From positions 62,001 to 126,000 of the forward strand of contig CAJAFV010000069.1 in NCBI GenBank assembly GCA_903939115.1: a DNA stretch of 64,000 nucleotides, written 5' to 3'. The notes under the pieces were generated by a model. The model had not been told where the DNA came from, did not search any database, and was given only the letters and a program-made list of their open reading frames with translations. A program made the translations under genes and the position numbers. This document shows positions 2,254 through 31,108 of this stretch, one piece after another (the first letter of the stretch is position 1; every line of letters starts with the position of its first letter). The stretch comes from an uncultured Geobacteraceae bacterium. GTDB taxonomy: Bacteria > Desulfobacterota > Desulfuromonadia > Geobacterales > Pseudopelobacteraceae.

Positions 2254-2294
2254 TGATATGGTGCCGATAATTTACTCCATGAGGGACATCATCC

Positions 2295-2558
2295 ATGAAC
2301 TTGATTGATAATCCGGATCAGGCAAAGCGACTGGCCAGGGCCATTCTCTCCGACGTGGCCATGTATAACAAGGAAAAGGTCGAGGACGGTATTAAAAACG
2401 ACACTATTTTTGATCTCCTCAAAGAGGAACTTGAAGAGGGACGCCAGCATTTCCTCTCCCGGGTTTCCGCCGATGTCAATCCGGAAGTCATCTATGGAAC
2501 GGCCGTGGTGGATGTTCTGATCAAACGGGCCGGGAAGATAGAATCCTCCATCTGGTAA
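2295..2558 (+). CDS. Small conserved hypothetical protein
   Basis: An 87-residue acidic, mainly helical protein without signal peptide or membrane segment. GAGGGA lies 9 nt before the ATG. It sits 41 bp after the HtrA gene and just before a strong hairpin terminator, so it probably closes that transcription unit. I do not recognise a named domain; the run FDLLKEELEEGRQHF suggests an amphipathic helix. Confidence 0.7.
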   Translation: MNLIDNPDQAKRLARAILSDVAMYNKEKVEDGIKNDTIFDLLKEELEEGRQHFLSRVSADVNPEVIYGTAVVDVLIKRAGKIESSIW

Positions 2559-2582
2559 CTCATCGCCACACACACTATTACT

Positions 2583-2621
2583 GCAAGGCGTACCTAGCTT
2601 CGGTGCGCCTTTGCTGTTTTT
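2583..2621 (+). terminator. Rho-independent terminator after the HtrA operon
   Basis: GCAAGGCGTACC pairs with GGTGCGCCTTTGC around a short TAGCTTC loop, allowing one wobble and one bulge, then a TGTTTTT tract. It ends the transcript of the HtrA and small hypothetical genes. Confidence 0.75.
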
Positions 2622-2666
2622 GAGCAAGTAACGCATTTATCCTGTTTGTCAGGGAAGAGGTTTACA

Positions 2667-3614
2667 TTGAATCATCATTCACTCATATTTTCCCCGGATC
2701 ACGAACCAACCAGAATTGACCTTTTTCTAGGTCGCGCAATTGGCGAATCCAGGGCGACGGTCCAGAGACTCATAGAAACCGGTCATGTACTGGTTGATGG
2801 CAAGCAGGTACGCACTTCCCTGAAACTAAAGGGGGGGGAACAGATCGATGTCGATATTCCACCGCCGTTGCCTGCCGAACCACTGGCCGAGGCTATCCCG
2901 CTGGATGTGCTGTATGAGGACAGCGACCTGATCGTTATCAACAAAGCGGCCGGAATGGTGGTGCACCCTGGAGCAGGCAACACCAGTGGCACACTGGTCA
3001 ACGCCCTGCTGGCACACTGCAGTGATCTGGCCGGAATTGGCGGCGAACTGCGCCCCGGCATCGTCCATCGCCTCGACAAGGGAACCTCCGGCGTACTGGT
3101 GGCAGCAAAACATGACCGTGCCCATCAGATACTTTCAGAGCAGTTCAGCGCTCACACTGTCAAACGTATCTACCAGGCGTTGATCTACGGTTCTCCACCG
3201 GAGGATACCGGAAGAATAGAGGGGATCATCGGGCGCCATCCAACCGAGAGACTACGCATGTCCAGCAAGGCCAAAAACGGGAAAAATGCGGTGACACGCT
3301 GGAAGGTAAAAGAGCGCTACGGCAGGGTTTCTCTGGTGGAGCTGCGGCTTGAGACCGGACGGACGCACCAGATCCGGGTCCATCTGACCGAAGCCGGCTA
3401 CCCGCTGCTGGGAGATCCGCTCTACCCGGACGGTGGACGCTGCAACAACATTCCCGACACCAAGCTGCGCGGCATTATCAACCGCCTTGGCCGTCAGGCG
3501 CTGCACGCCCGCTGTCTCGGCTTCATCCATCCGTCGACGGGAGAGTATATGGAGTTTACGACTGAACCGCCGGAGGATCTGCTGGAACTTTTGAAATATC
3601 TGCGGAAGGAGTAA
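2667..3614 (+). CDS. rluD: RluD-family 23S rRNA pseudouridine synthase
   Basis: Isomerises specific uridines of 23S rRNA to pseudouridine in the cytoplasm. From the chosen start the protein is 315 residues: an S4 RNA-binding domain at about 7-65 and the catalytic domain, with the RluA-family motif HRLDKGTSG carrying the catalytic Asp137. ETGRTHQIRVHL further on is also typical. I chose the TTG at 2667 because AGGGAAGAGG precedes it by about 6 nt; an upstream TTG at 2646 in the same frame has no such site. The 3' end overlaps the convergent HAD gene by 59 nt. RluD versus RluA/RluC specificity is inferred from the S4 domain and overall length. Confidence 0.9.
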   Translation: MNHHSLIFSPDHEPTRIDLFLGRAIGESRATVQRLIETGHVLVDGKQVRTSLKLKGGEQIDVDIPPPLPAEPLAEAIPLDVLYEDSDLIVINKAAGMVVHPGAGNTSGTLVNALLAHCSDLAGIGGELRPGIVHRLDKGTSGVLVAAKHDRAHQILSEQFSAHTVKRIYQALIYGSPPEDTGRIEGIIGRHPTERLRMSSKAKNGKNAVTRWKVKERYGRVSLVELRLETGRTHQIRVHLTEAGYPLLGDPLYPDGGRCNNIPDTKLRGIINRLGRQALHARCLGFIHPSTGEYMEFTTEPPEDLLELLKYLRKE

Positions 3615-4260
3615 TTCCATTTGGAGTGATGAGATATTCCAGCCGCAGCAACTGCTCCAGATTCTGACTCAAATACACGGGACAGCCAAGCTGTTCCGGC
3701 AGACGGAGATCGACATCATAGCGATCTCCGACAAACAGCGCCTCGCGTGGAGAGAGGTCGAGCAACGCCAATACCCTGCGTACCACGTCCTCATCCGGTT
3801 TGCCCCGCCACGTATCATCAATGGTAAAAATATCGTCAACCAAGCCGTCCAACCCAAGAAAGTTCATAATACGGGTCGTTAGGACACGATTGTTGTTCGT
3901 GTAAATGGAGAGCGAAAACTTTTCTGCAAGGCGCTCCAGCAGGCGAATCACACGTTCATCGCGGACAAGGTAGGCTTCCGGTTGCAGGTTTTGCTCAAAG
4001 AAATAATGGAGATCCGGCACATTCCCGCCCAACTCGGTACAAACCGCAGATATCGTCTGAACGGTACCGCTCTCTTCCGTGAGCCTCAACCTGGCCGCAG
4101 CCATTATAAGGCCTGCCTCTGTAGAGCTTATCTGTTTGAGAGCGGCAATATAGGCGGAAGCCGCTGCCTGAATTTCGGCGGCAAAGCGATCGCACACATA
4201 CAGGGTACCGTCGAGATCGAAGATTATCCCCTTTAGTTCTGCACCATCTAGCTCTGCCAT
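3556..4260 (-). CDS. HAD-superfamily hydrolase (phosphoglycolate phosphatase-like)
   Basis: Phosphatase of 234 residues with the HAD nucleophile motif FDLDGT (Asp15, Asp17), a conserved Lys in RGKPDED and the acidic motif GDRYDVD. The residues between motifs I and II form an alpha-helical cap (subclass I), as in Gph/PpaX-type enzymes; the substrate cannot be read from sequence. The ATG directly follows the stop codon of the upstream MidA-like methyltransferase gene, so the two are probably translationally coupled. The 3' end overlaps convergent rluD. Confidence 0.85.
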   Translation of the reverse strand: MAELDGAELKGIIFDLDGTLYVCDRFAAEIQAAASAYIAALKQISSTEAGLIMAAARLRLTEESGTVQTISAVCTELGGNVPDLHYFFEQNLQPEAYLVRDERVIRLLERLAEKFSLSIYTNNNRVLTTRIMNFLGLDGLVDDIFTIDDTWRGKPDEDVVRRVLALLDLSPREALFVGDRYDVDLRLPEQLGCPVYLSQNLEQLLRLEYLITPNGITPSADISKVPADPPAVQS

Positions 4261-5406
4261 TTACCCTCCGATGCCGCGCCGGCAGAGCAGTTGGGGAGCA
4301 TTGATTCCCCTGGACTGGATCAGCACCTTGAAGGTCTCACCCATACCACCGTCAGGCAGGATCAGTTTTTTGAGGGTCAAACGGAGCCGCAGCTTTTCCT
4401 CCTCGGATACTTTAGAGCGCTCAATCTTTTCAATCTCCTCGACGATACCGGCTGAGAGGAGAAAGCGGTACTGCTCTCCGAACCATTCGTTCTGCAGCCC
4501 GGATTGTTCACCACACTTCATCAGAGTTGTAAAATCGACATGTGTGGTAATATCCTGCAGCCCCAGGCGGAGATAGGGATTTTCCTCGGTCTGGTGGCGA
4601 TAGTAACAGAGAAGAGTGCCAAGCTTGCGGCGTGGTGTGTAGAGCTCAGGAGCGGTATAGCCGTAATCGACGGTCAGGATGAAACCCTGCTGGAGCGCTT
4701 TCGCTGCTGCGGCCAGCCATTTGGGAGCGTTCAGATTGACTTCGGCCTGTTGGCCGGGATGGAGTTCCACAGCGACACGTTCCAGGTAGGCGGCAATCTC
4801 GGGAGTAGACAGCTCTCCTGCCTCTTCGACAAACTCACCATCCTTGCAGGTAACGTAGATCTCGCGCAATCCTTCAGCGGTCATAACCACCCGATGAACC
4901 GGCAAGGCATCGATAAGTTCATTAGAATAGAGACAGCCGCTGAAAGTAAAACTTCCTGAGGCAAACTCATCAGGGGAAAGCCAGTCGAGCCGGTCAGCAT
5001 AGGTATTCAGCATCTCGCGTTGCGCCGATTCAAGCGAAGGCTCCTGCTCCACCAGCAGCAGGCGGAGTCCCCCGTACATGTCAGGCTCGTGCTCCGCCAG
5101 AAAATCCATGACATCACAGGCCAGACGACCGTTGCCGGCACCGCACTCCACCAGCGTAAACCCGGACGGACTACCCATGCTGCGCCACATCTGGGCTATT
5201 TCGCGGGCGATCACCCGACCGAAGGCGGCGTGGACGGTGATGCTGGTATAAAAATCACCCTCGGCGCCGACTTTCCGCCCCGGCGAGGTATAGTAGCCGA
5301 GCCCCGGTTCGTAGAGACAGGCGGCCATGAAGTCGGCAAAGGTGATGCGCCCCCGCTCGTTGATGCGAGCGGTGATGATGTCATTGAGTGGGGTGGTATC
5401 AGTCAT
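4261..5406 (-). CDS. MidA/NDUFAF7-like SAM-dependent methyltransferase (DUF185)
   Basis: Class I S-adenosylmethionine methyltransferase of 381 residues. The start ITFADFMAACLYEPGLGYYTS is the hallmark of the DUF185 family. The SAM-binding motif is VECGAGNGR (Glu87 to Arg94), and ELIDALPVHRV follows in the catalytic half. The mitochondrial relative NDUFAF7 methylates an Arg of a complex I subunit; bacterial roles are less clear, so the substrate is unknown. It is the first gene of a two-gene unit with the HAD phosphatase, whose ATG abuts its stop codon. Confidence 0.87.
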   Translation of the reverse strand: MTDTTPLNDIITARINERGRITFADFMAACLYEPGLGYYTSPGRKVGAEGDFYTSITVHAAFGRVIAREIAQMWRSMGSPSGFTLVECGAGNGRLACDVMDFLAEHEPDMYGGLRLLLVEQEPSLESAQREMLNTYADRLDWLSPDEFASGSFTFSGCLYSNELIDALPVHRVVMTAEGLREIYVTCKDGEFVEEAGELSTPEIAAYLERVAVELHPGQQAEVNLNAPKWLAAAAKALQQGFILTVDYGYTAPELYTPRRKLGTLLCYYRHQTEENPYLRLGLQDITTHVDFTTLMKCGEQSGLQNEWFGEQYRFLLSAGIVEEIEKIERSKVSEEEKLRLRLTLKKLILPDGGMGETFKVLIQSRGINAPQLLCRRGIGG

Positions 5407-14400: not shown

Positions 14401-15174
14401 ATGTTTGAGCGTCCCCTTCACCAACGGATTGCTCAGGTCCTCGGCGCATTGAACGGAACAGTGCTGAAAGAGCATAGTTGCCTGTTCGGTGGCGGAACAG
14501 TAATTGCGCTCCGTTTCGGCGAATTCCGCGAGTCAGTCGACATCGACTTTCTGCTGTCGGATGTAACCCGTTACCAAAGCTTGCGACAATTGCTGAAGGG
14601 GAGTGATGGTATTAACGCCATCTTGCTGACTGGGCAGCCCTTCTTGACACAGCTGCGCGACATGCGGGCTGATCAATACGGCATCAGGACAATGATCTCG
14701 ATGGCCGGGCAGCCCATCAAATTCGAGATCATTCTGGAAGGTCGGATCGAACTGGCCGCGCCAACTTCGAAAGATGTGGTCTGCGGCATTTCCACCCTGA
14801 CGGTTCTGGATATGGTGGCGAGCAAACTCCTGGCTAACTCCGACCGCTGGGCTGACGACGGGGTTTTTAGTCGGGATCTGATTGACCTGGCCATGATGCA
14901 GCCCCGATTGCCCCTGTTACGCCGGGCTATCGCCAAGACTAATGTTGTTTATGGTCAAGCAATCAGCGTTGATCTAGGGAAAGCCGTTCACCAGCTTCAA
15001 CAGCGGCAGGGATGGCTTGAGCGCTGCATGCAGGCGATGGCCATGACGCTGCCGAAAGCGCTGGTCTGGCAGCGGGTGCACAATTTGTACAAGACTTTGG
15101 CGGCGTGTGAAAAAGAGCAGGCTAATGCTGATCCAATGGACGGTAGAGTAGGAAGCAGGCCACTGCAACCGTAG
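14401..15174 (+). CDS. AbiEii/MNT-like nucleotidyltransferase toxin
   Basis: A 257-residue member of the nucleotidyltransferase superfamily. GGGT at 30-33 and the metal-binding pair Asp47/Asp49 (SVDIDF) match the GS...DxD core of AbiEii toxins, which inactivate tRNA or other targets by adding nucleotides. The C-terminal half is helical. It is tightly linked to the XRE gene and probably co-transcribed. An abortive-infection (anti-phage) or plasmid-type addiction role is an inference from the family. Confidence 0.8.
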   Translation: MFERPLHQRIAQVLGALNGTVLKEHSCLFGGGTVIALRFGEFRESVDIDFLLSDVTRYQSLRQLLKGSDGINAILLTGQPFLTQLRDMRADQYGIRTMISMAGQPIKFEIILEGRIELAAPTSKDVVCGISTLTVLDMVASKLLANSDRWADDGVFSRDLIDLAMMQPRLPLLRRAIAKTNVVYGQAISVDLGKAVHQLQQRQGWLERCMQAMAMTLPKALVWQRVHNLYKTLAACEKEQANADPMDGRVGSRPLQP

Positions 15175-15260
15175 GTTTGGCTTGTCTGTTTCCGCCTCTT
15201 TCGTTTGGCGGTACCCTAGTAGCCTTGCTGTATAGGCCTTAACCAGCGCTTCCGCTCATC

Positions 15261-15293
15261 AAACCGTACGTGCGGATTTCCCGCATACGGCTA
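15261..15293 (-). ncRNA. Group II intron domain V (remnant)
   Basis: Read on the minus strand, TAGCCGTATGCGG, a GAAA-containing loop, then CCGCACGTACGGTTT closely matches the conserved 34-nt domain V of bacterial group II introns. It lies 25 bp downstream of the maturase fragment, the normal order. The rest of the ribozyme is missing, so it cannot splice by itself. Confidence 0.75.
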
Positions 15294-15318
15294 ACAGACG
15301 GTCTTCTTGCAACAGGCA

Positions 15319-15540
15319 TTATAGAGGAGTTGAAGACGGTGCTTTTACAGGTACCAGACCATAGCGTTTCAGTCCGGCATACAGGCTCTCACCTGCCCTG
15401 AAGGGTTTGCTCCGTCGTTGGCTCCGATTGTTCAGAAATATTTGAAAGCGAGTCCTTGTATAATGGTTCACGCCTCGAAACACTTTACGGGGATACCCGT
15501 AGTCGAAGTAGTTACCCCATCCACGAAGGATGCTGTTCTT
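15319..15540 (-). pseudogene. Group II intron reverse transcriptase/maturase, C-terminal fragment
   Basis: The open frame encodes 73 residues starting KNSILRGWGNYFDYGYPRKVF, the GIIM maturase domain X signature (normally LRGWANYF...). An in-frame stop bounds it upstream and TAA at 15319-15321 ends it. About 80% of a normal protein (reverse transcriptase fingers and palm) is gone and no endonuclease domain follows. Together with domain V it marks the 3' end of a degraded group II intron beside the cassette array. Confidence 0.85.
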
Positions 15541-15643
15541 CTACGATTACATGGACAATATGAAAGTGCATCTTTTGATACTGGGTGTTGCCAGCGGATG
15601 TTACTTGAGGATCAATAAATAAATCTGTCCCCTTTTTCCTTCC

Positions 15644-15940
15644 TTACGCAGCCATTTTCCACGGATGGATTTTTCTCAGTTCAGCGTGCATGGTCTTTTC
15701 AATCTCTTCGGTATCATAATCCGCCTGCAACCCTAGCCAGAAAGCTGCCGTTGTGCCAAAAAAACGTGCAAGTCGTATTGCAGTATCCGCACCGATCGCC
15801 CGCTTCCTCAAGCAGATGGCAGAGACTCTTGATTCCGTCACGCCGATCTCCTTTGCAAGCCGATACTGGCTTATTCCCATTGGAGCAAGAAACTCTTCTT
15901 TCAAAACTTCACCAGGGTGTACGTTTGCTAGTTGTGCCAT
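15644..15940 (-). CDS. higA: HigA-family antitoxin
   Basis: A 98-residue XRE antitoxin starting with the HigA signature HPGEVLKEEFLAPMGISQYRLAKEIGV; the helix-turn-helix spans about 22-75. It neutralises the HigB encoded 9 bp upstream (toxin first, as usual for higBA) and represses the shared promoter. It is the last cassette at the low-coordinate edge of the minus-strand array, about 100 bp from the intron remnant. Confidence 0.9.
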   Translation of the reverse strand: MAQLANVHPGEVLKEEFLAPMGISQYRLAKEIGVTESRVSAICLRKRAIGADTAIRLARFFGTTAAFWLGLQADYDTEEIEKTMHAELRKIHPWKMAA

Positions 15941-15949
15941 AGAATCACC

Positions 15950-16231
15950 TCAATGATAATCACAAATCTCAACACGCGACGCAGTACCTTTATCCCACAG
16001 GAAGCATACACGCCACTGGTCGTTAATCCGAATACTCCACTGCCCTTCTCGATCATTAGAAAGCTTTTCAAGTCTATTTTGCGGAGGTATGCGAAGATCG
16101 TCAATCTTGTTCGAGTTGTTCAGCATCCTTAATTTCCTTCTAGCTACCTGCTGTATATCGTTTGGTAGCTTGCGTGAAAACTCACCATTCCACACTTTTT
16201 GGGATTCATTGTCATAGAAGGAAGTAATCAT
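15950..16231 (-). CDS. higB: HigB-family mRNA interferase toxin
   Basis: A 93-residue RelE-fold ribosome-dependent endoribonuclease. It begins MITSFYDNES, the HigB N-terminus (usually MIKSFKDKET), and has NRLEKLSNDREGQWSIRIND and WRVCFLW as in the family. I start at the ATG at 16231 by homology, although an ATG 9 nt upstream exists. First gene of a higBA pair. Confidence 0.88.
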   Translation of the reverse strand: MITSFYDNESQKVWNGEFSRKLPNDIQQVARRKLRMLNNSNKIDDLRIPPQNRLEKLSNDREGQWSIRINDQWRVCFLWDKGTASRVEICDYH

Positions 16232-16240
16232 TGTGCACAT

Positions 16241-16589
16241 ACTACCGTTTCATGGCAGTAGTGGCAAGGAAATTAATTGACGGGAATGTCCGTATCGATT
16301 GAAAAATTTCATTGTCCCTTTGGCCCTTAACATCATTTATGTCAAAAACGGTCGATAGAAAAATAACAAACAGTATTCCCCTGATGGCACACGTAAACAG
16401 ACAATAACAAAAGCCTGACCCCGTAGGTTCTTTTCATAATCGACTCGTTCCTTATTGGTCGTTTGGCGTGCGCTGATAATTCAGATTTCAGCGTTAGAGA
16501 CAACAACAAAAGCCTAACTCCGTAAACTCCCGCGTATGCTCGAAATCAGTGGTCGACTTGGCGTGGAATCCCCAACTAACTCACTAAAC
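16241..16589 (-). repeat. Inter-cassette repeat region 1
   Basis: No gene. It contains a partial copy of the array repeat (about 16400-16430, gacaataacaaaagcctg then accccgtaggttc) and a degenerate copy near 16500-16530 (agcctaactccgtaaac). The left arm of the inverted repeat is not recognisable here, so this spacer is the most decayed of the set. The rest is AT-rich and probably holds the higBA promoter. Confidence 0.7.
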
Positions 16590-16940
16590 TCACAAAAACA
16601 AGCGATAATCGCAATGAAGAGCTGCAGCTAATTTCTTGGCATTTTCTTTGCCAATTGGCCTCGCTCCACTCTCCATACCAGAAATATGGGGGCGAGGAAT
16701 TCCACTTATTCTTGACAACTGTTCTTGCGTCATATCGTCTTTATAGCGGGAGCCACGTAAGACAACCCCACCTTTATTTGTACGTACTTCAGGAAACACT
16801 TCTTCAATGGAAAGAGTGTCAGTAATATCTTCAACACCGGCTTCTTTTGCCAGCTCACGCAAGCGGCGTATACGATCAGGAGTACCGGCAAAACGTGCCT
16901 CAATGTGCTTAGTATGGTGCTTTTTCGTGTGTTCCAACAT
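16590..16940 (-). CDS. XRE-family antitoxin
   Basis: A 116-residue antitoxin. The helix-turn-helix is in the C-terminal half (about 65-112; MTQEQLSRISGIPRPHISGMESG). The N-terminal half, with a basic His-rich start, probably contacts the toxin. It overlaps the upstream toxin gene by 32 nt, so translation is coupled. Arrangement and sizes fit the RelE/ParE-XRE (higBA-like) group. Confidence 0.85.
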   Translation of the reverse strand: MLEHTKKHHTKHIEARFAGTPDRIRRLRELAKEAGVEDITDTLSIEEVFPEVRTNKGGVVLRGSRYKDDMTQEQLSRISGIPRPHISGMESGARPIGKENAKKLAAALHCDYRLFL

Positions 16941-17187
16941 AAATCACCTCAATCAAACGTATCTCATTTTTTCGTTCTTCCCAAACAGCAACATAAGTGG
17001 GCTGTCCTGCTTTCAAATGGCAATGATGCCGTGTATCGGTCAGCTTGCCATAGCTTGACCAGTTACCACGTACAGCACCAGATAACTGAAGTTCAAGCAT
17101 CAGACGTGTCAGAATATCCTGTATCCTCTGTGGTAGCTTCTTAATCTGCTTTTCAGTTTTCCTGTGAGTAGTCACTGTCCAAGTCAT
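16909..17187 (-). CDS. RelE-superfamily toxin
   Basis: A 92-residue RelE/YafQ-fold protein. Visible features are the basic helix KTEKQIKKLPQRIQDIL, the central GNWSSYGKLTDTRHHCHLKAG strand region and the C-terminal WEERKNEIRLIEVIYVGTH. These are the usual elements of ribosome-associated RNases of this family. First gene of the pair, directly followed by its XRE antitoxin. Confidence 0.85.
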   Translation of the reverse strand: MTWTVTTHRKTEKQIKKLPQRIQDILTRLMLELQLSGAVRGNWSSYGKLTDTRHHCHLKAGQPTYVAVWEERKNEIRLIEVIYVGTHEKAPY

Positions 17188-17417
17188 AACTGTAATGTAT
17201 CATTTATTGATACATCGTCAAGAGTTATTTCTAAACATAGTTATTTCTAAACATGGAAGAATTGTCAAACAATGACCCCACGCTATCATGTGTTTAGCAG
17301 GCATTTAATTGATTGTGGAATGAAAATAATGATTTAATCAAAGACCTAAATGGTTCCACTGCAGCTTCTGGTTTCTTCTTAAATAAAGCTCTCATAGAGT
17401 TTTAAGGTTGAAATCTG

Positions 17418-17490
17418 TCTCATAACAGTTTGTATGTCAATTCGTGTTACCAGCATTGCAGGCAATAACAACAGCCTGACCCCTTAGGTT
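17418..17490 (-). repeat. Inter-cassette repeat 2
   Basis: One full unit: ctcataacagtttgtatg, gtcaattcgtgttacc, then ggcaataacaacagcctgac with ccccttaggttc. Left arm GTCAATTCGTG pairs imperfectly with the right arm ending in GCCTGAC. The surrounding 17188-17417 has no gene and presumably carries the promoter of the RelE/XRE pair. Confidence 0.8.
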
Positions 17491-17492
17491 CC

Positions 17493-17520
17493 CTGATGCC
17501 GCCCTCAAAAGCGGCATCAG
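17493..17520 (-). terminator. Hairpin terminator after a DUF2442 gene
   Basis: CTGATGCCGC and GCGGCATCAG form a perfect 10-bp stem around an 8-nt loop, directly after the DUF2442 stop codon at 17522. A T-rich tract exists only on the other strand, so termination efficiency on the minus strand is uncertain. Confidence 0.5.
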
Positions 17521-17521
17521 T

Positions 17522-17851
17522 TTATTTTAAGACGCACTCGCCAGTTCTACAAATATCCTCGTACATGGCGTCGGGTGCAAGATCGAGATCTCCCGGCCAA
17601 GTGACGGCTCCATAGTGCAGAGAAACTTGAGAAAACAGATTTTCGTCTCTTAGAGCTTCAAAAACGCCGGCTCTTGGCGAATGGATAAATCCAGACATAA
17701 CAACCGTACCTTCTGTTCCATCATTAAAGCGAACTGAAAGCCTGAATCCTGGTAAAAGTGAAACAACTGCAACTCTCCAGGCAGCCTTTGGAATGATTGC
17801 AGGTACTATTTCAAAGGAGAGATTTTCTTCGGAGTTTGCATACGCGCACAT
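17522..17851 (-). CDS. DUF2442 protein of a DUF4160-DUF2442 pair (copy A)
   Basis: A 109-residue small beta-rich protein. The DUF2442 pattern is clear: FRLSVRFNDGTEGTV, EALRDENLFSQVSLHYGAVTWPGDLDLAPDAMYEDI. It overlaps the upstream DUF4160 gene by 46 nt; GGAGG is about 10 nt before the ATG. Biochemical function is unknown. Constant pairing with a DUF4160 gene and occurrence in a TA array suggest it is one half of a toxin-antitoxin-like module, probably the antitoxin or immunity side by gene order, but this is inference. Confidence 0.8.
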   Translation of the reverse strand: MCAYANSEENLSFEIVPAIIPKAAWRVAVVSLLPGFRLSVRFNDGTEGTVVMSGFIHSPRAGVFEALRDENLFSQVSLHYGAVTWPGDLDLAPDAMYEDICRTGECVLK

Positions 17852-18066
17852 AATTCCCAGTCCTCCATAAGTTCGGTTCTGTGTTCACTGGCCCACTCAA
17901 GTACCAAAACACGTGCACGGTTTGGTAGTTCACCTTTTATAATATCTAAGGTTTGTAGATTGAATTGTGCCTCATACTCAGCATAAAGCACATGAAAGTG
18001 TGGTGGTGAATGGTCAACCCAGAACATCTGTATAATTATTCCGTAAAACATGCTGATAGTAGGCAC
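17806..18066 (-). CDS. DUF4160 protein of a DUF4160-DUF2442 pair (copy A)
   Basis: An 86-residue protein beginning MPTISMFYGIIIQMFW with a histidine pair at residues 23 and 25 in SPPHFHVLYAEYEA, then LVLEWASEHRTELMEDWELC. The HxH and the acidic helix are conserved in all four copies in this window. I chose the GTG at 18066, placed 6 nt after AGGAGG; a TTG just upstream is less well placed. First gene of the pair. Function is unknown; the HxH could bind metal or nucleotide. Confidence 0.8.
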   Translation of the reverse strand: MPTISMFYGIIIQMFWVDHSPPHFHVLYAEYEAQFNLQTLDIIKGELPNRARVLVLEWASEHRTELMEDWELCARMQTPKKISPLK

Positions 18067-18088
18067 TACCAACCTCCTTGCGAAAACA

Positions 18089-18530
18089 GATCACAGTTTA
18101 AGATGCAGATGAAAATACCTCATAACTGCTTTTATGTCAATTTGTGTCCACCTTCGGAAATAAGCGGACTTGTAGGGGCGCTGCTTGCCGCGCCCGCCTT
18201 TAGATGTTGTGTTTCAAGAAAGCAGAACGCGACTGCAGGAGTGGGACATTCGGAAATCAACGATAGAAAAATAACCCGCACCGACCTCCACTTTTACCCC
18301 TAAAATAGGCAATAACAAGAGCCTGACCCTGGAGGTTTACCCTTCGGCAATAAGCGGACTTGTAGGGGCGCTGCTTACCGCGCCCGCCTTTAGACGTTGT
18401 GTTTCAAGAAGGCAGAATCCGACATCATGTGTGGGATATTCGGAAAGAAACAATAGAAAAACAACCAGCAACGACCTCCTCTTTTACCTTGCAAATAGGC
18501 AATAACAAAAGCCTGACCCCGTACGTTCCA
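18089..18530 (-). repeat. Inter-cassette repeat 3 (extended, two units)
   Basis: A long variant: the standard left arm, then about 150 bp containing a REP-like hairpin (GGGCGC stem closing on GCGCCC at about 18178-18198), then the standard right arm ending at 18330. A second extended unit lacking the left arm follows (18343-18530). The two share about 180 bp. Confidence 0.8.
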
Positions 18531-18564
18531 CTGTAGTTTTTTTCTTTTAGGTTTATTTGAGGTT

Positions 18565-18894
18565 TCAAGCGACTCTCTTTAATGGTCGCTTTGGTTGACT
18601 GCTGTGCTGTTCGGTATCATTGCGGTGTGCAGTCAGTTCTTTGTGAACTGCATCGACTTTCTTGTCAACTGCATCGACTTTCTTGTCAACTGCATCTACT
18701 TTCTTGTCAATAGTGTCGACACGTTTACTCAAACCCATTATCTTGCAATCAAGAATGGCTATTTCCTCTTTTAATTCATCTCTTACAGAATCAATCTTAT
18801 GATCAACTGCTGTAACAGCCTCTAATGTGATCTGCATTTTACTGTCCATCGATTCAAGCAGAATCATTAAATGGTCTTTTTGCAGTTTTGTCAT
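18565..18894 (-). CDS. Solitary coiled-coil protein
   Basis: A 109-residue protein with no partner gene. Start MTKLQKDHL is preceded by GAGGTG. The centre (about residues 30-85) is a coiled coil, with an exact heptad block KKVDAVD repeated about four times and encoded by 21-bp tandem DNA repeats. The C-terminus is polar and basic (QPKRPLKR). No signal peptide or membrane helix. The function is not recognisable; it occupies a cassette position between two array repeats like its neighbours. Confidence 0.65.
   Translation of the reverse strand: MTKLQKDHLMILLESMDSKMQITLEAVTAVDHKIDSVRDELKEEIAILDCKIMGLSKRVDTIDKKVDAVDKKVDAVDKKVDAVHKELTAHRNDTEQHSSQPKRPLKRVA
18650..18715 (-). repeat. 21-bp in-frame tandem repeat
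   Basis: About three copies of tttcttgtcaactgcatcga plus one base, coding the KKVDAVD heptads. Copies are nearly identical, so the number could change by slippage without breaking the frame. Confidence 0.8.
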
Positions 18895-19008
18895 AACACA
18901 CCTCTCAACTGAAATAGTGTCGAAAAATAGCACGGGGGACTCAGTTACGTCAAAGTATTTTATCTGCTATTTTTCTATAAAAACGGGGGAACGATCGTAA
19001 ATATTAGT

Positions 19009-19080
19009 CTCATAAACTGCTTTTATGTCAATTTGTGTTGCCATTCGCGAATAGGCATTAATGATAGCCTGACCCCGTAT
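19009..19080 (-). repeat. Inter-cassette repeat 4
   Basis: A standard unit with central TGCC-ATTCGCGAAT-A-GGCA hairpin: cataaactgcttttatgtca, atttgtgttgccattcgcga, ataggcattaatgatagcct, gaccccgtatttt. Confidence 0.85.
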
Positions 19081-19119
19081 TTTGAATAACTTTCAAAAAT
19101 TCACTGTAGAAGATGAGCT

Positions 19120-19353
19120 TTAGATTGGTATTGAAAGATCATAAAGGGTTTCTGGTGCAATATCAAGTTCACCAGGCCAGCACACAGTATCGAGCGCAAC
19201 GAACGCCTGCTTGAATAGGGTTAAGTCTTGCAATTTTATAAATACACCCCGATTCAGATATGGCCGCGCGTCAAACAAACGATGATCTCCTGTGTTGAAC
19301 CACAGTTCTAAGAAGAAGTCGTCTCGAGGTATGACATTAGTAACGGACTCCAT
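19120..19353 (-). CDS. DUF2442 protein (copy B), partner frameshifted
   Basis: A 77-residue DUF2442 protein: DDFFLELWFNTGDHRLFDARPYLNRG and CWPGELDIAPETLYDL. It starts 8 bp after the stop of a broken DUF4160 gene. If the pair forms a TA unit, this copy may now be an orphan. It belongs to the same subfamily as the copy at 20383 and differs from copies at 17522 and 23623, where the genes overlap. Confidence 0.78.
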   Translation of the reverse strand: MESVTNVIPRDDFFLELWFNTGDHRLFDARPYLNRGVFIKLQDLTLFKQAFVALDTVCWPGELDIAPETLYDLSIPI

Positions 19354-19361
19354 ATACCCTC

Positions 19362-19630
19362 CTAGCGTAAAGGTTCAATCGTAAATGGTGTTTGCCCACT
19401 GACAGCAAGTTCCCAATCTGCCAAAAGCGACTCTCGATGAATTTCAATCCAAGCCTGTACTAACCGTACTTTAGTAACAGGGATTTCGCCTGCAAAACTG
19501 AGCTATCTATAATTGAAAAAGAAGCATCTTGCCCTTGATATTTTGCATGAATATGAGGCAACTTATGTCTCTCATCATCGTAGAAGTAAAGGCTTATTAT
19601 AATTCCATAAAACATGCTGATTGTCGGCAT
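19362..19630 (-). pseudogene. DUF4160 gene with one-base deletion
   Basis: Reads MPTISMFYGIIISLYFYDDE and LPHIHAKYQGQDASFSIIDSS, then runs into a stop. Shifting frame near 19490-19497 restores GEIPVTKVRLVQAWIEIHRE and LLADWELAVSGQTPFTIEPLR to the expected end. One base is missing, most simply from the TTTT run. It aligns end to end with the intact gene at 20632-20901. Either a decayed gene or a sequencing error. Confidence 0.8.
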
Positions 19631-19678
19631 ATTCAATCCCCTTCTTAAAACAGGTCGCTACTCATCATGTGGATAAAA

Positions 19679-19830
19679 TAGCTCATAAACTGCTTTTATG
19701 TCAATTCGTGATGCCAGCGATATAGACAACAACAAAAGCCTGACCCCGTAGATTCTCCATAACTGCTTTTATGTCAATTTGTGTTGCCATTCTCGAATAG
19801 GCATTAATAAAAGCCTGACCCCGAAGGTTT
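19679..19830 (-). repeat. Inter-cassette repeat 5 (two units)
   Basis: Two adjacent units. The first has the alternative centre gatgccagcgatatagacaa (ends about 19755); the second has the ATTCTCGAAT centre (ends about 19828). Both end in gcctgaccccg. Confidence 0.85.
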
Positions 19831-19848
19831 TCATGGCAATAATGCTGC

Positions 19849-20139
19849 CTACTTGATCAATTTCATCAAGAGTGCAGCGATGAGAACTGTCTGAAAAAAG
19901 CCCGCACCGACGACCCAGCGAACCAATTCTGATTTAGTCTCGGCGATTTCTTTACGAACCGTTTCAATATCACGCTTCAACTCTAACTTCACAACTTCAA
20001 GATCATTTTTAGTGGCAACCTCTGAAGACGCAACGGCATCGCGCACGACGTCAATTATAACTTCAGCTTGCGGCTCCGTGATTCCCGTTTCTCGCAGTCT
20101 GCGAACAAATAAATGTGTGTCAAAAGTTATAGCAGACAT
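19849..20139 (-). CDS. DUF1640-like coiled-coil membrane protein, solitary
   Basis: A 96-residue protein. The N-terminus ITFDTHLFVRRLRETGITEPQAEVI and the coiled coil KNDLEVVKLELKRDIETVRKEIAETKSELVRW fit the DUF1640/CCDC90 group. One C-terminal membrane helix (VGAGFFQTVLIAALLMKLI) anchors it. Start ATG at 20139 follows AGAGGTGG. A single-gene cassette. Function unknown; a related, frameshifted copy lies at 22100-22370. Confidence 0.78.
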   Translation of the reverse strand: MSAITFDTHLFVRRLRETGITEPQAEVIIDVVRDAVASSEVATKNDLEVVKLELKRDIETVRKEIAETKSELVRWVVGAGFFQTVLIAALLMKLIK

Positions 20140-20230
20140 AAACCACCTCTGACCGGATAGTAACAAAGAAAAATATTGAAGTCAAAAAAGAAATCTGCAT
20201 CTTTCTTTGCACAAAATAATGGTATGAAAA

Positions 20231-20355
20231 TCTGTCCCATAAACTGCTTTTATGTCAATTTGTGTTGCCATTCGCGGATAGGCATTAATGAGAGCCTGAC
20301 CCCTTATTTTTTCCGTAGATTTATATAGGACAAAACAAAAGCCTGACCCCGGAGG
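20231..20355 (-). repeat. Inter-cassette repeat 6 (one full, one partial unit)
   Basis: A full unit with ATTCGCGGAT centre ends in gcctgaccccttatttt (about 20310). A right-arm-only copy (aaaacaaaagcctgaccccg, then gaggttta) ends about 20358. Confidence 0.85.
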
Positions 20356-20382
20356 TTTATTGATGCCGCTTAACAAACTACG

Positions 20383-20622
20383 TTAGAGAATCGACTTTCC
20401 GCGTAAATACAACGTATCTGGCGAGAGGTCGATCTCGTCATTCCAGGTAACTGCTCCATAAACTACTGACGCGCGCGTAAATAACCCGTCCTCTTTGAGT
20501 GCAGAAAACGCAGGAAAAGCAAGAAATGGCTTCATATCAAACCAGCGGATCTCCCCTGTGTCAAATTCTGCCTCAATGCAATAATCCGGCAACGTTTTTA
20601 CTTTAATCACATCCGGGGCCAT
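20383..20622 (-). CDS. DUF2442 protein of a DUF4160-DUF2442 pair (copy C)
   Basis: A 79-residue DUF2442 protein (YCIEAEFDTGEIRWFDMKPFL, then VVYGAVTWNDEIDLSPDTLY). It starts 9 bp after the DUF4160 stop. Closest relative in the window is the 19120 copy: same gene spacing and the same FD(M/A)xP(F/Y)L motif. Function unknown; see the pair at 17522-18066 for the rationale of a TA-like role. Confidence 0.8.
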   Translation of the reverse strand: MAPDVIKVKTLPDYCIEAEFDTGEIRWFDMKPFLAFPAFSALKEDGLFTRASVVYGAVTWNDEIDLSPDTLYLRGKSIL

Positions 20623-20631
20623 ATAAACCTC

Positions 20632-20901
20632 TTAACGTAAAGGATCAATCTTAAATGGTGTCTGGCCGTTTGTAGCCAGAAACCAGTCTGCCATAAGTTC
20701 GTCACGATGTAGTTCCAGCCAAGCTTGCACTAATTTCATCTGCCGAGAGGGAATACTTCCCTCCAAGACGTCACCATTTGGGATCTCAACTACTACCTTA
20801 AATTCGTTGTAACGAATGTGGATGTGAGGTAGATGGTGCTTCTCCGCATCAAATACATACATAGATACTAAAATCCCATAAAACATACTAATTGTCGGCA
20901 T
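20632..20901 (-). CDS. DUF4160 protein of a DUF4160-DUF2442 pair (copy C)
   Basis: An 89-residue DUF4160 protein: MPTISMFYGILVSMYVF, the HxH in HHLPHIHIRYNEF, then VQAWLELHRDELMADW and PFKIDPLR at the end. It is intact over the position where the 19362-19630 copy is frameshifted. AAGGAG lies about 8 nt before the ATG at 20901; a longer start to 20934 adds an unrelated hydrophobic stretch and is rejected. Confidence 0.82.
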   Translation of the reverse strand: MPTISMFYGILVSMYVFDAEKHHLPHIHIRYNEFKVVVEIPNGDVLEGSIPSRQMKLVQAWLELHRDELMADWFLATNGQTPFKIDPLR

Positions 20902-20950
20902 GTTCAATCTCCTTATATAAAAGAATCCAAACATACATATGGGTAAAATA

Positions 20951-21170
20951 CCCCATAACTGCTTTTATGTCAATTCGTGTCCGCCTTCGGAAATAAGCGG
21001 ACTTGTAGGGGCGCTGCTTGCCGCGCCCGCCTTTAGATGTTGTGTTTCAAGAAGGCAGAACGCGACTGCAGGAGTGGGACATTCGGAAATCAACGATAGA
21101 AAAATAACCAGCACCGACCTCCACTTTTACCCCGAAAATAGGCAATAACAAGAGCCTGACCCCGTAAGTT
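20951..21170 (-). repeat. Inter-cassette repeat 7 (extended unit)
   Basis: Nearly identical over about 210 bp to the extended unit at 18098-18330, including the REP-like GGGCGC/GCGCCC hairpin at about 21008-21027 and the same internal text up to gagcctgaccccg. Confidence 0.85.
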
Positions 21171-21227
21171 CTTTCAGTGGGTTTCCTCCGTTAGACTCTG
21201 CTAGACTTCCGCGTAGGTTCTTGTTGA

Positions 21228-21515
21228 TCACGCTGCCAACGCTAGTCGCTCTACTTTAAGTATTTTAGTTTTTTTGCGAGCCTGCCAAAGGTCATACTGC
21301 ATTTGCTGTGATAGCCAACTTTCAGGTGTTGTGTCGAATGCAATAGACAAACGCATGGCCATTTCAGTGCTTATTCGTGAATGACCATTCAAAAGATCTG
21401 AAAGCGTTTTTCTGCTAATACCCAGAGCCGCCGCAGTCTGGCTTGTTGTTATGCCAAGTGGTTCAATGCAAAGTTCGCGTATTACTTCGCCAGGGTGTGG
21501 TGGGTTGTACATCAT
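21228..21515 (-). CDS. higA: HigA-family antitoxin
   Basis: A 95-residue XRE antitoxin with the HigA start [20 protein letters not shown] and helix-turn-helix [19 protein letters not shown]. It follows the HigB gene by 12 bp. It differs strongly from the HigA at 15644, so the two pairs are probably not recent duplicates. Confidence 0.9.
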
Positions 21516-21527
21516 AATGATGCTCCT

Positions 21528-21806
21528 TTAATGATAATCAAGATAGTCTACATCAGCCACATGTGCACCATGAAAACGGAAAATAATTCTCCAGTTGCCA
21601 GATACATTAAGCGCGAACCAGCCGTTTAAATCACCTGAAAGAGAATGGAGCCTCAGACCGGGCAAGTTCATATCTCTGGATTCACATGCAACCGTTAGGC
21701 GAGCAAGAATAAGACGTAATTTTTTTTCATGTTGAGCCTGAATTCCATTTTTTCGACCGTTCTCGAAAAAAGATGCCAATCCTTTATGACGGAAGTTCAG
21801 TATCAT
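21528..21806 (-). CDS. higB: HigB-family toxin
   Basis: A 92-residue RelE-fold RNase: MILNFRHKGLASFFENGRKNG at the start, RLHSLSGDLNGWFALNVSGN centrally and WRIIFRF near the end, all typical HigB elements. The ATG at 21806 gives the family N-terminus; the frame stays open to 21872 but that extension is unrelated. Toxin-first order. Confidence 0.9.
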   Translation of the reverse strand: MILNFRHKGLASFFENGRKNGIQAQHEKKLRLILARLTVACESRDMNLPGLRLHSLSGDLNGWFALNVSGNWRIIFRFHGAHVADVDYLDYH

Positions 21807-21916
21807 ACGGACGTTTATATCATGTAGCACAAGATTGTAAATAAGAAAAACAGAATCAGTTAAACACTTCATATGTTTGACTTAACAGTTTAAAGAGTGA
21901 AACTGAAATTTATTTG

Positions 21917-22090
21917 TCTCATAAACTGCTTTTATGTCAATTCGTGATGCCAGCGATATAGACAACAACAAAAGCCTGACCCCGTAGATTCTTATACTGT
22001 GTAAATCAGTCCATAACTGCTTTTATGTCAATTTGTGTTGCCATTCGCGGATAGGCATTAAGAGAGCCTGACCCCTTATTTTTTCACCGA
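21917..22090 (-). repeat. Inter-cassette repeat 8 (two units)
   Basis: Same pair of variants as repeat 5: first the gatgccagcgatatagacaa centre, then the ATTCGCGGAT centre ending gcctgaccccttatttttt. The tandem pair thus occurs twice in the array in the same order. Confidence 0.85.
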
Positions 22091-22099
22091 AGGTTCTTC

Positions 22100-22370
22100 T
22101 TACTTGATCAGCTTCATCAGCAGCGCAGCAATAAGTACTGTTTGCAAGAAACCTGCGCCAACAATCCATCGCACAAGTTCTGCTTTATTTTCAGACATTC
22201 GGGCTTCAAATTTCAATTCAAGCTCCCTGATATCAGCTTTTGTAGCCACCTCAGGCTTCACCATGTGCCTCTCGGAAAGCTTCAGTAATAGCAATTGATT
22301 GAAATTCAGATAGTCCTGAGTCCTTCAGACGAGTGACAAACTTCAGTGTATCAAAAGTAATAGTTGACAT
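22100..22370 (-). pseudogene. DUF1640-like coiled-coil membrane gene, frameshifted
   Basis: Starts MSTITFDTLKFVTRLKDSG after AGGTGAG, matching the gene at 19849-20139, but stops after EAFREAHGEA. The +1 frame continues VKPEVATKADIRELELKF and ends in the same membrane anchor TVLIAALLMKLIK. The span is 271 nt, one base too many, near 22256-22262. Overlapping ATGGTGAAG and TGAGG could allow a restart, giving a 55-64 residue anchor fragment. Confidence 0.78.
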
Positions 22371-22486
22371 AAACTCACCTCAGGCTTTGATGGACAATAG
22401 CAAACAGGCGACATAAAGTCAAATAGAACAAAATGAGGCCGAAATGAATGATTAAATGACAAATAAATAGTGCGTTACACTTTTGT

Positions 22487-22640
22487 CCCATAAACACCTC
22501 TTATGTCAATTTGTGTTCCCGGCTATCGTTAAAGGCAATAACAAGAGCCTGACCCCGTAGGTTTTCCTAACCAGCACCGACCTCCTCTTTTACCCCCACA
22601 AATAGGCATTAACAAGAGCCTGACCCCGTAGGTTCTCCCG
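22487..22640 (-). repeat. Inter-cassette repeat 9 (one unit plus tail)
   Basis: A unit with the gttcccggctatcgttaaag centre ends about 22562; then only the last 65 bp of an extended unit (accagcaccgacctcctctt to gaccccgtaggtt). Confidence 0.8.
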
Positions 22641-22702
22641 GGAAGTGTCCCTTATTATCCTTGTGTTCCTCCAATGCAAGCCAAGCACCGATGATCGATC
22701 AT

Positions 22703-22987
22703 CTAAACTAATTCAAGATGGAGTTCACGCCCTATAAGTGCAGCAGCACGTTGGAGTGTCTCAATTGTCACGTTACCCTTTGCCTTAAAAATACGGTCTA
22801 CTTGTGAACGACTTGTGTGCATCTGTTCAGCCATTTGCGTTTTGGTAAGTCCTTTTTTGTGGATTTCCTCGGCAAGCTGCCACATAAGTACACGAGTCAC
22901 AGCTTCAGCCTTCGCAGCTTTATGAATACCTTCCTCATGCAGAAATTCCTCAAGTGATGAACCCCAATGTTGATTTTTCACGCTCAT
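22703..22987 (-). CDS. XRE-family antitoxin of a Gp49-type pair
   Basis: A 94-residue antitoxin: helix-turn-helix at about 42-80 (LTKTQMAEQMHTSRSQVDRIF), with EEIHKKGLTK just before it. It overlaps the toxin stop by 4 nt (ATGA type). Partner and order fit type II modules of the phage Gp49-like/HigA group. Confidence 0.85.
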   Translation of the reverse strand: MSVKNQHWGSSLEEFLHEEGIHKAAKAEAVTRVLMWQLAEEIHKKGLTKTQMAEQMHTSRSQVDRIFKAKGNVTIETLQRAAALIGRELHLELV

Positions 22988-23337
22988 GATGTCATCTCCT
23001 TCATTCGTTTCCGTGCTAATTCAAGTTCATTTTGCGGCGTTTTATCAGTTTTCTTTATGAAACCATTTACTATGCCGATTCGCGCATCATGCATAAAAAA
23101 CAACACTCGTGCGATACGACGGCTTGGCAAACTACTACGCACTTCCCATAATCCTCCACCAAGCGGACGGCATAACGGCATGCCAATCGGCCAACCTACT
23201 TGCACCGTGGCGAGGTCAATCCCAATTGATCGTCGATCCTCCTCAGGTAAGCACCGCAACCATTCTCTAACCGGTTCAACCCCGTTAGAAGTGCGGTAAA
23301 ATGTAACAGGAATCTCTGTTAAATGAATATCAGACAT
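22984..23337 (-). CDS. Phage-derived Gp49-like (HigB-type) toxin
   Basis: A 117-residue RelE-superfamily protein of the Gp49 group: VTFYRTSNGVEPVREWLRCLP, PLCRPLGGGLWEVRSSLPS and RVLFFMHDARIGIVNGFIKKT are the family landmarks. ATG at 23337 chosen; the frame extends to 23433 but that stretch has no ribosome site and overlaps repeat-like DNA. First gene of the pair. Confidence 0.87.
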   Translation of the reverse strand: MSDIHLTEIPVTFYRTSNGVEPVREWLRCLPEEDRRSIGIDLATVQVGWPIGMPLCRPLGGGLWEVRSSLPSRRIARVLFFMHDARIGIVNGFIKKTDKTPQNELELARKRMKEMTS

Positions 23338-23531
23338 AAACAATCCCTTTAAAGTATGTGTACCATACAAGGTACAGTCGAGCAAGAAAAAATTCCGGAT
23401 TATGCTGTTTCGTTGGTACGCTTGCCGCGCCAACCTTTAGGTGTTGTATTTGTAAGTGAGAAGAATGCGAGCGCAGCAGAGTGATAATAGGAAATAAATA
23501 ACCAGCAGCGTTAGAACCGAAATTTTTTTGT

Positions 23532-23606
23532 CTCATAAACTGCTTTTATGTCAATTTGTGTTGCCATTCGCGAATAGGCATTAATAAAAGGCTGACCCCG
23601 AAGGTT
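23532..23606 (-). repeat. Inter-cassette repeat 10
   Basis: A standard unit with ATTCGCGAAT centre, right arm variant aaaaggctgaccccgaaggt. Upstream DNA at about 23405-23520 is a degenerate relative of the extended variant (cgcttgccgcgcc and related text). Confidence 0.85.
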
Positions 23607-23622
23607 TTCCTAGGTTTCCCCG

Positions 23623-23949
23623 TCATTCTGAGTCAGGTACCCGCCATATTCCAGAATCACGAATTGCCTTGTACATTGTTTCTGGTGCTAGGTCAGCGCC
23701 GTTGGGCCAAGCCACTGAACCATAGTCCAAATAGGCCTGTGCGAAGTAAGAGGGATCACGCAGCGCAGAAAATATACCAGGGTCGTTAGAATATATTAAA
23801 TCTGTAATATCTACTAAACCAACGAGACCGTCATTAAATTTTACTGACAGTTTCCAATCTGGTAACACCTTTAAATCGCAAGCTCTCCATGGCGTAGAAG
23901 GCATTAATCCAGTGGCTTGATTGACTTTGGCAACTGTTTGGCACGACAT
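23623..23949 (-). CDS. DUF2442 protein of a DUF4160-DUF2442 pair (copy D)
   Basis: A 108-residue DUF2442 protein: LKVLPDWKLSVKFNDGLVGLVDI, ALRDPSYFAQAYLDYGSVAWPNGADLAPETMYKAI. It overlaps its DUF4160 partner by 46 nt, as in copy A, and shares A-type motifs such as (K/R)FNDG and ALRDxxxF. This defines a second subfamily of the module. Confidence 0.8.
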   Translation of the reverse strand: MSCQTVAKVNQATGLMPSTPWRACDLKVLPDWKLSVKFNDGLVGLVDITDLIYSNDPGIFSALRDPSYFAQAYLDYGSVAWPNGADLAPETMYKAIRDSGIWRVPDSE

Positions 23950-24167
23950 AAGTTCCAATCCTCCAATAGCTCTTCTCGATGTTCGTTAGCCCACTCCAAC
24001 ACCAACGCTAAAGCACGTCGGGGTAATTTACCTTCAATAACTTCAAGACGCTGAATATCCACCAGTGCCTCATGTTCACCATATATGGCGTGAAAGTGTG
24101 GTGGATTATGTTCACCACGAATATACATATGAATGATGATACCAAAAAACATACTGATTGTCGGCAT
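23904..24167 (-). CDS. DUF4160 protein of a DUF4160-DUF2442 pair (copy D)
   Basis: An 87-residue DUF4160 protein: MPTISMFFGIIIHMYIR, NPPHFHAIYGEHEALVDIQ, LVLEWANEHREELLEDWNLC. It is closest to copy A at 17806. GGAGATTG precedes the ATG at 24167. First cassette at the high-coordinate end of the array. Confidence 0.82.
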   Translation of the reverse strand: MPTISMFFGIIIHMYIRGEHNPPHFHAIYGEHEALVDIQRLEVIEGKLPRRALALVLEWANEHREELLEDWNLCRAKQLPKSIKPLD

Positions 24168-24216
24168 GTTCAATCTCCTTCTAAAAGCATCACACCACTG
24201 ATCGTGTGGATAAAAT

Positions 24217-24380
24217 AGCTCATAACGGCTTTTATGTCAATTCGTGATGCCAGCGATATAGACAACAACAAAAGCCTGACCCCGTAGGTTCCGCTTATGT
24301 CAATTTGTGTTCCCGGCTATCGTTAAAGGCAATAATAAAAGCCTGACCCCAAAGGTTTAAAGCCTGACCCCAAAGGTTTT
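24217..24380 (-). repeat. Inter-cassette repeat 11 (three ends)
   Basis: A full unit with the gatgccagcgatatagacaa centre (to about 24292), a second lacking its left end (cttatgtcaatttgtgttcc, to about 24358), and a bare right-arm copy (aaagcctgaccccaaaggtt, 24360-24380). Confidence 0.8.
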
Positions 24381-24391
24381 CCTGTAAATGT

Positions 24392-24427
24392 AAAAAGACC
24401 CCGCCTACTTGGTAGAAGACGGGGTCT
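24392..24427 (-). terminator. Rho-independent terminator after the DUF6447-like gene
   Basis: On the minus strand AGACCCCGTC and GGCGGGGTCT form a stem with CTAC/GTAG extending it, followed by TTTTTACA. It separates the surface-protein cluster from the cassette array. Confidence 0.85.
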
Positions 24428-24449
24428 CTAATGTTTATGCCAGCGGATC

Positions 24450-24674
24450 TTACTTCAAATTCCCTACAACCACTTCCGACATATCAACTGATTTTGGCAG
24501 ATTGGTATTCACAGCATTTGCATAAGCGATTCTGGCAGTCTGTGCAATGGCAAGTTTCATATTTAACTGTGCAATTTCCTGATCAGTTGCTGCCAACATG
24601 TTTAGCTGTGCTTTCGTATCATCAGACAGTTTATCCAATTCATATACCTTATTATCAATCGTAATCGTATTCAT
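24450..24674 (-). CDS. Small DUF6447-like protein
   Basis: A 74-residue protein: MNTITIDNKVYELDKLSDDTKAQL, then a helix rich in Ala and Gln. The pattern resembles DUF6447, short proteins often encoded next to type I secreted proteins. GGAG lies 6 nt before the ATG at 24674. It is downstream of the giant surface gene, separated by a hairpin, and ends at its own terminator. Function unknown. Confidence 0.65.
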   Translation of the reverse strand: MNTITIDNKVYELDKLSDDTKAQLNMLAATDQEIAQLNMKLAIAQTARIAYANAVNTNLPKSVDMSEVVVGNLK

Positions 24675-24702
24675 TACATTCTCCACTTTCTGGTTTAATT
24701 TA

Positions 24703-30749: not shown

Positions 30750-30873
30750 TTACCGCGAAGGCGCGAAGGACGCTAAGGAAGTCAAAGGCAACAGTCTTAA
30801 AGCTTTTGGTTAAAAACAAAAAGGGTGGTTTTAGCTTTAGATCTTCTTCGCGTACTTCGCGGCTTTGCGGTAA
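30750..30873. repeat. Long hairpin repeat P1
   Basis: TTACCGCGAAGGCGCGAAGG at the left pairs over about 30 bp with the right end CTTCGCGGCTTTGCGGTAA, around a 55-60 nt AT-rich loop. First of a family of near-identical elements in 30.7-33.3 kb. The 30332-30749 stretch has no gene; it probably carries the lipoprotein promoter. Confidence 0.75.
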
Positions 30874-30919
30874 ATGCAGTTTAAAAGCTTGAATGCCGTG
30901 AATTCTTGAAAAGCTTGAA

Positions 30920-31063: not shown

Positions 31064-31108
31064 AAATCGGTTTAAAAGCTTGAACCGTGAATTCTTGAAA
31101 AGCTTGAA

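Follow-up and report, generated by a model that had tools for sequence, protein, structure and literature searches.

The window analysed here, a stretch of 64,000 nucleotides from an uncultured Geobacteraceae bacterium, contains the 3′ remnant of a group II intron, located between the end of an abiEii-type toxin gene and the edge of an array of small toxin-antitoxin modules with a recurring separator repeat. The features of this part of the window are as follows.

14401-15174, plus strand: abiEii-type toxin gene (PF08843, 76.2 bits)
15142/15143, minus strand: 3′ splice junction, exon at ≤15142 and intron at ≥15143 (twelve agreeing 3′ ends)
15143-15556, minus strand: entire extent of the group II intron 3′ remnant (396 of 415 ungapped columns identical to the intact intron L032)
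15143-15257, minus strand: domain VI, with basal helix, large tip insertion and intron 3′ end (..CTCTAC)
15262-15292, minus strand: domain V, catalytic hairpin (RF00029 match; alignment of 12 relatives)
15352-15552, minus strand: remnant of the maturase (domain X) with two stops, corresponding to residues 459-525 of 527 (protein match; frame readings)
15556/15557, no strand: intron break point (start of homology to the intact intron)
15557-15632, no strand: diverged separator-like stretch at the array edge (local score 31 against separators)
15644-15940, minus strand: HigA-type antitoxin, first array module (TIGR02607, 103.6 bits, cut-off 47.7)
15950-16240, minus strand: HigB-type toxin (PF05015, 66.2 bits)
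16384-24292, no strand: array region, in which the separator repeat (family D1) occurs 15 times

The extent of the remnant was established through its homology to L032, which runs from 15556 to 15140, the last three bases (15140-15142) being exon, and which identifies the remnant as approximately the 3′ fifth of the intron. As this homology reaches 15140, the remnant includes the full domain VI and the 3′ splice junction, and the interval of 15261-15540 assigned in the initial annotation was too short. The recognition in that annotation of a group II intron 3′ remnant with domain V and the maturase domain X was nevertheless correct. The Rfam family RF00029 (group II intron, D5-D6) matched 15143-15295 on the minus strand with 45.5 bits (E 9.6e-6, against a gathering score of 40) and was the sole Rfam match at gathering scores in the window, and the maturase fragment, 67 codons interrupted by two internal stops, was 91% identical (E 8.8e-37) to the C-terminal residues of the intact protein. 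The AGC motif at the start of domain V was invariant in the 12 sequences aligned. In the consensus fold of 12 relatives, domain VI of the group forms a helix with a bulged branch-point region, within which the branch-point base is presumably located, and has an AY 3′ end.

Domains I-III and the full reverse transcriptase/maturase protein, all present in the intact relative, were absent from the window, in agreement with the earlier reading, in which neither the 5′ ribozyme nor the larger part of the reverse transcriptase is left. Lacking these domains and a working protein, the remnant cannot splice or move alone. The other four fifths of the intron could not be located in the organism's own genome (G000), and neither could a second copy of the remnant, the DNA search yielding one match, to the remnant only, and the protein search one maturase match plus a distant fragment. 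The latter, a reverse transcriptase stretch at G000:C36:121586-121801, showed 32% identity over residues 433-504. The remnant is confirmed as an ordinary fossil, and on the alignment position 15556 is a break and not a splice site.

On its 3′ side the intron abuts the abiEii-type gene, to which it is antisense. Among the relatives of abiEii, six of the nine with a match were examined, and in these six the homology stops between 15099 and 15124. The last 32 nt of the abiEii frame (15143-15174) are antisense intron, and the protein encoded by 14401-15174 carries a foreign C-terminal tail from this source. No empty site corresponding to the window was found, the DNA beyond abiEii differing in each of the five readable relatives out of the six examined. 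The insertion junction sits at the end of the abiEii gene and not at a separator; the intron insertion boundary, which was to be looked for beside a separator repeat, faces the abiEii end instead.

On the opposite side, homology to the intron gives way to the 76 bases of 15557-15632, followed by the HigA- and HigB-type genes. The score of 31 for this stretch against the separators was reached by 8 of 1000 dinucleotide shuffles and by 6 of 1500 random window segments. Genomes G030, G003 and G028 contain units of the form TTTTATGTCAATTT..AATAAATAAATCTGTCCCC, or close to it, and the edge in the window likewise ends in AATAAATAAATCTGTCCCC. The stretch may accordingly be read as a diverged separator, in which case the intron would have been cut within a few bases of the separator start, and since the break abuts this putative separator, array turnover probably took the rest of the intron. 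The suggestion that the intron scar might not lie next to the array by mere coincidence gains support from this abutment. Variants of the motif AATAAATAAATCTGTCCCCTTTTT (window 15612-15641) were also seen in G030, G003, G028 and G006, and a plasmid search with 15550-15660 gave one 25-base match, in two short Pseudomonas aeruginosa records.

The main competing explanation is that the separator lies beside the break by chance and that an unrelated deletion truncated the remnant. It draws on the moderate likeness of the stretch to the separators (about 70% over 34-40 nt in blastn, E 0.14), which was moreover sought after the location was known. The rarity of comparable scores among shuffles and random segments weighs against coincidence, as does the presence of both halves of the pattern in separators of this type from G030, G003 and G028. 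Coincidence is thus considered unlikely, though it retains an appreciable share of the probability. Insertion plus deletion and a simple deletion are indistinguishable here, as the missing intron part was not found.

An intact relative from the same genus was located in G033, a metagenome-assembled genome of an uncultured Geobacteraceae bacterium (MJ3_bin-256, contig CAIOXL010000178.1, G033:C178). This intron (L100 2713-4784, 2072 nt) belongs to the same family as the remnant, with 396 of 415 columns identical, and has the domain VI insertion and the 3′ end in common with it. Unlike the window copy it is intact, its 5′ exon ends in CCTCTG, and at least seven 3′ ends occur in its genome. A second intron, from Geobacter sp. 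UBA6802 (DKFG01000083.1; L101 2710-4703, 1994 nt), was 89% identical to L100 over 1989 bases and occupies the 3′ arm of an inverted repeat; unlike L100, it has a plain short domain VI without the insertion. The four introns measured ranged from 1994 to 2079 nt, L100 stopping at its contig end. In Pfam searches the protein of the relatives contained reverse transcriptase and maturase domains only, and no endonuclease.

Twelve 3′ ends (seven in G033, one in G007, two in G024 and two in G008) agreed through CTCTAC and continued with TG (10) or CG (2), past which the DNA differed among them. A thirteenth, the diverged L045 from G013, was excluded from this count, its match stopping 36 bases early. 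As the twelve ends agree up to CTCTAC, the junction in the window was placed at 15142/15143, with CG as the first exon bases. At the other terminus, 11 intron ends were available (eight loci in one set, together with L101, L102 and L103), and all began with GTACG except that of L102, which began with GTGCG. One copy, in G007 (L039 ~2038-4940, G007:C56), is a twintron, in which another group II intron, with an RF02003 ribozyme and a 446-residue protein, interrupts the copy directly behind domain V; the last 121 bases of the interrupted copy are identical to those of G033.

As the window has no D1-D4 part, ribozyme class was tested on the relatives. Three class C controls, picked by 43-65% identity to GsI-IIC, matched the ribozyme model RF02001 at 129, 135 and 147 bits, whereas the best match of L102, in a search that lists only the top of overlapping matches within one clan, was RF02005, over its gathering score. 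For L100, L101 and L103, none of the D1-D4 models gave a match with E of 0.5 or below, which, as a failure to match, is weak evidence. In a first quick tree of 59 rows, the six class C rows formed a clade (support 96) away from the four relatives, which grouped at 99 and joined L105 and eight introns (from Nitrobacter hamburgensis, Bradyrhizobium, Azotobacter, Planctomyces, Buttiauxella, Microvirga and, twice, Paraburkholderia) at a fork of support 94 that is left open. A second tree of 38 rows, from which 21 of the 59 that were long, broken or redundant had been dropped, including the broken L103 protein, split off class C at 100 and placed the N. hamburgensis intron at the neighbouring fork (83, likewise open). 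Both trees contain few named references, among them none taken knowingly from classes A, B, D or E. The lineage is most likely non-IIC, chiefly on the evidence of the ribozyme and with the trees in support.

The nearest named neighbour is the N. hamburgensis plasmid intron (L161), which we take to be Ni.ha.I1 or I2. The Ni.ha introns were placed in class F/g3 by Toro 2013 (PMC3552965). The term class F-like, as used below, is a label drawn from this tree neighbourhood, and the fit is untidy because the N. hamburgensis intron matches RF02003 and not RF02005. Assignment to group g2 by the FADD motif (Toro 2013) was also considered and set aside: the L100 protein has FADD, but that of L101, 90% identical to it, has YADD, so the motif does not decide the matter.

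These results bear on the proposal, made in the initial annotation, that a class C-attC intron had homed to an attC-like site of the cassette array and left a scar. Points in its favour are the endonuclease-less maturase, the best solved-structure matches of which are class C enzymes (6ar1, 7uim), the position of the remnant next to an array of small modules, and an AU test in which the relatives, forced together with class C, gave a grouping that was not rejected (p-AU 0.149). The proposal was nonetheless discarded, mainly on the ribozyme model, and both trees likewise place the relatives outside class C. A crude consensus scan for paired R boxes found 0 attC-like sites in 15557-24700, against a mean of 0.64 in 100 shuffles, an expectation so small that the scan has low power. 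No integron integrase (TIGR02249) exceeded the cut-off in the 99 contigs of the own-genome assembly, the best score being 99.6 bits against 265, and the insertion junction faces abiEii. Homing of a class C-attC intron is accordingly very unlikely; it had been anticipated that the fragment might prove to belong to an intron class with other targets, and this is probably the case.

Domain VI of the family has a basal helix and, at its tip, an insertion of about 90 nt. The insertion was common to introns or fragments of the window, G033, Paraburkholderia, Burkholderia, Microvirga, Xenorhabdus, Buttiauxella, Azotobacter and Planctomyces, among them the class F-like introns L149, L150, L152, L153, L155 and L163; L102 has a diverged form of it, and L161, L170 and L105 have a shorter domain VI. 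The consensus fold of 12 sequences comprised 36 pairs; 15 of these, 4 in domain V and 11 in domain VI, showed one or more changes on both sides, but the covariation term was small (-2.07). In the closely related pair described above, domain VI is plain and short in L101 (4634-4703) and in L100 (4634-4784) bears the large insertion that introns of other phyla have as well, a difference that may possibly reflect loss or swap of a module. That the remnant has been kept for a function, for example as a hairpin ending abiEii transcription or as a structured RNA, is the least probable of the explanations considered, for although 200 of 200 shuffles fold less well than its strand (z -2.89), domain V owes its fold to the live intron, domain VI of the window copy folded alone lacks the ancestral pairing, and the remnant was seen in one genome only.

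The insertion sites of the relatives were then compared; of 12 regions fetched, six consisted of the repeat only and were left out. In 10 of 11 relatives the 5′ exon ended in CTCTG (7), CTTTG (1) or TTTTG (2), and in L102, the most distant, it ended in ATCCTG. An opposite arm, for example CAGAGGGCACAGAG, was found 102-157 bases upstream in six of the 11, scoring above all 30 shuffles in each case, in one barely (10 versus 9), and no arm scoring above the shuffles was found in the other five flanks. The flanks of L032 and L039 are not independent of each other, since both share one upstream repeat. Among nine loci viewed in the own genome, six (representing three distinct elements) had both arms uninterrupted and three did not. 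A filled site with a TG or CG 3′ exon reads CTCTG/TG or CTTTG/CG, the slash marking the junction, which is the sequence of an intact arm. Taken together, the flanking sequences suggest that these introns enter a terminator-like dispersed repeat close to where its 3′ arm ends; that the 3′ exon of the window (CG) fits such an arm proves little.

In G033 and G007 the intron is preceded by a dispersed hairpin repeat (..CCCCCTCAACCGGCC..CTTCTCCCCCAGGGAGAAGG..; positions 30-121 of the query L032:1901-2241), which has matches across the genus, with at least 19 in the own genome (e.g., G000:C71:207732-207779). The own-genome matches listed for the query spanning the intron 5′ end covered query positions 30-97 only, a repeat upstream of the intron. 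Within the window, several copies of CTTCGCGTACTTCGCGTCTTTGCGGT-type repeats, resembling the arms targeted by intact introns, occur at 30757-33240 (families D6 and D9-D11), and one-mismatch matches to CTYTGYGYCTYTGYG were found at 31110 and 33043. The letters of the repeat were found in no paper of the literature searched.

Genome counts of CTYTGYG were rejected as evidence and prove nothing, because a reversed control pattern also matches, the repeat being tandem. A search for an empty site of the cobS copy in G007, across 13 orthologous upstream regions of 37 relatives with a match, loosely flagged two, none of them convincing. As a candidate exon-binding site, a 7-base exon complement was present in L102 at intron position 196, and L100 and L101 offered only weak or wobble complements.

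On balance, it is probable that a non-IIC, class F-like intron inserted antisense at the 3′ end of abiEii and that an array module later replaced everything 5′ of 15556. While still active, the intron would have moved by reverse splicing into DNA, with a short exon pairing directing it to a site close to where the 3′ arm of terminator-like, dispersed inverted repeats ends, as several intact relatives seem to do. A toxin-antitoxin module with its separator (15557 onward) may then have recombined into the intron at a point within the protein gene, or a deletion may have brought the two together there. The DNA 5′ of 15556 would thereby have been lost, leaving the 3′ end, domains V and VI and the maturase tail, which would since have decayed by frameshifts. 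The remnant would be a victim of array turnover and not an attC-homing element.

A broader reading is offered tentatively, namely that a non-IIC lineage took up hairpin-directed targeting itself, using the repeats as a safe harbour throughout the genome, with a domain VI module shared with distant introns and with the separator edge serving as a joining end for modules of separator and toxin-antitoxin pair, one such joining being recorded by the stump. Its particulars, which are held with similar reserve, are that the targeted arms would be CACAGAG.. with ..CTCTG/TG and CGCAAAG.. with ..CTTTG/CG, and that the domain VI module would be missing from an intron 89% identical to one that has it.

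The relatives matter more than the remnant, being multi-copy introns, most likely outside class C, that seemingly target the arms of inverted repeats, and they include a natural pair of introns with and without the large domain VI insertion. The value of the stump is that it orders events, with the intron first and DNA with a separator-like edge then replacing the rest, and it provides a handle on the growth of arrays that look unlike integrons. No published description of this intron family was found in the literature searched, which mostly excluded subscription papers. In the portions of the sources available, PMC4424553 associates class C introns with terminators and attC, and other lineages with homing sites, and in PMC8919778 types g6, U1 and U2 also often lie directly behind terminators, so that the targeting habit seems to be described chiefly for class C and, in one survey, also for g6, U1 and U2.

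Among known systems, the tree neighbours of the window's family are the class F-like introns of the N. hamburgensis plasmid, Paraburkholderia, Microvirga, Buttiauxella, Azotobacter and a Planctomyces plasmid. These differ from it in their exon sequences, and L161 also in its lack of the insertion and its match to RF02003. Class C and C-attC introns (GsI-IIC and relatives) resemble the family in lacking an endonuclease and, according to the accessible part of PMC4424553, in inserting at or after DNA hairpins. The family differs from class C in its ribozyme model and clade, and its site is in the last part of a repeat arm itself instead of in attC or behind a terminator. In the Halorhodospira halochloris CALIN, as far as the available text describes it (PMC7923331), class E fragments provide a parallel in that non-IIC 3′ fragments lie beside a toxin-antitoxin-rich array with no integrase; attC sites are reported there, whereas the crude scan found none in the window array. 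A further likeness, in the part of PMC1525189 available, is to Pseudomonas putida KT2440, where REP elements, which are dispersed palindromic repeats, harbour two of the nine group II intron copies, although in that case, unlike the family described here, the repeat is a different one and a minority of the copies is concerned.
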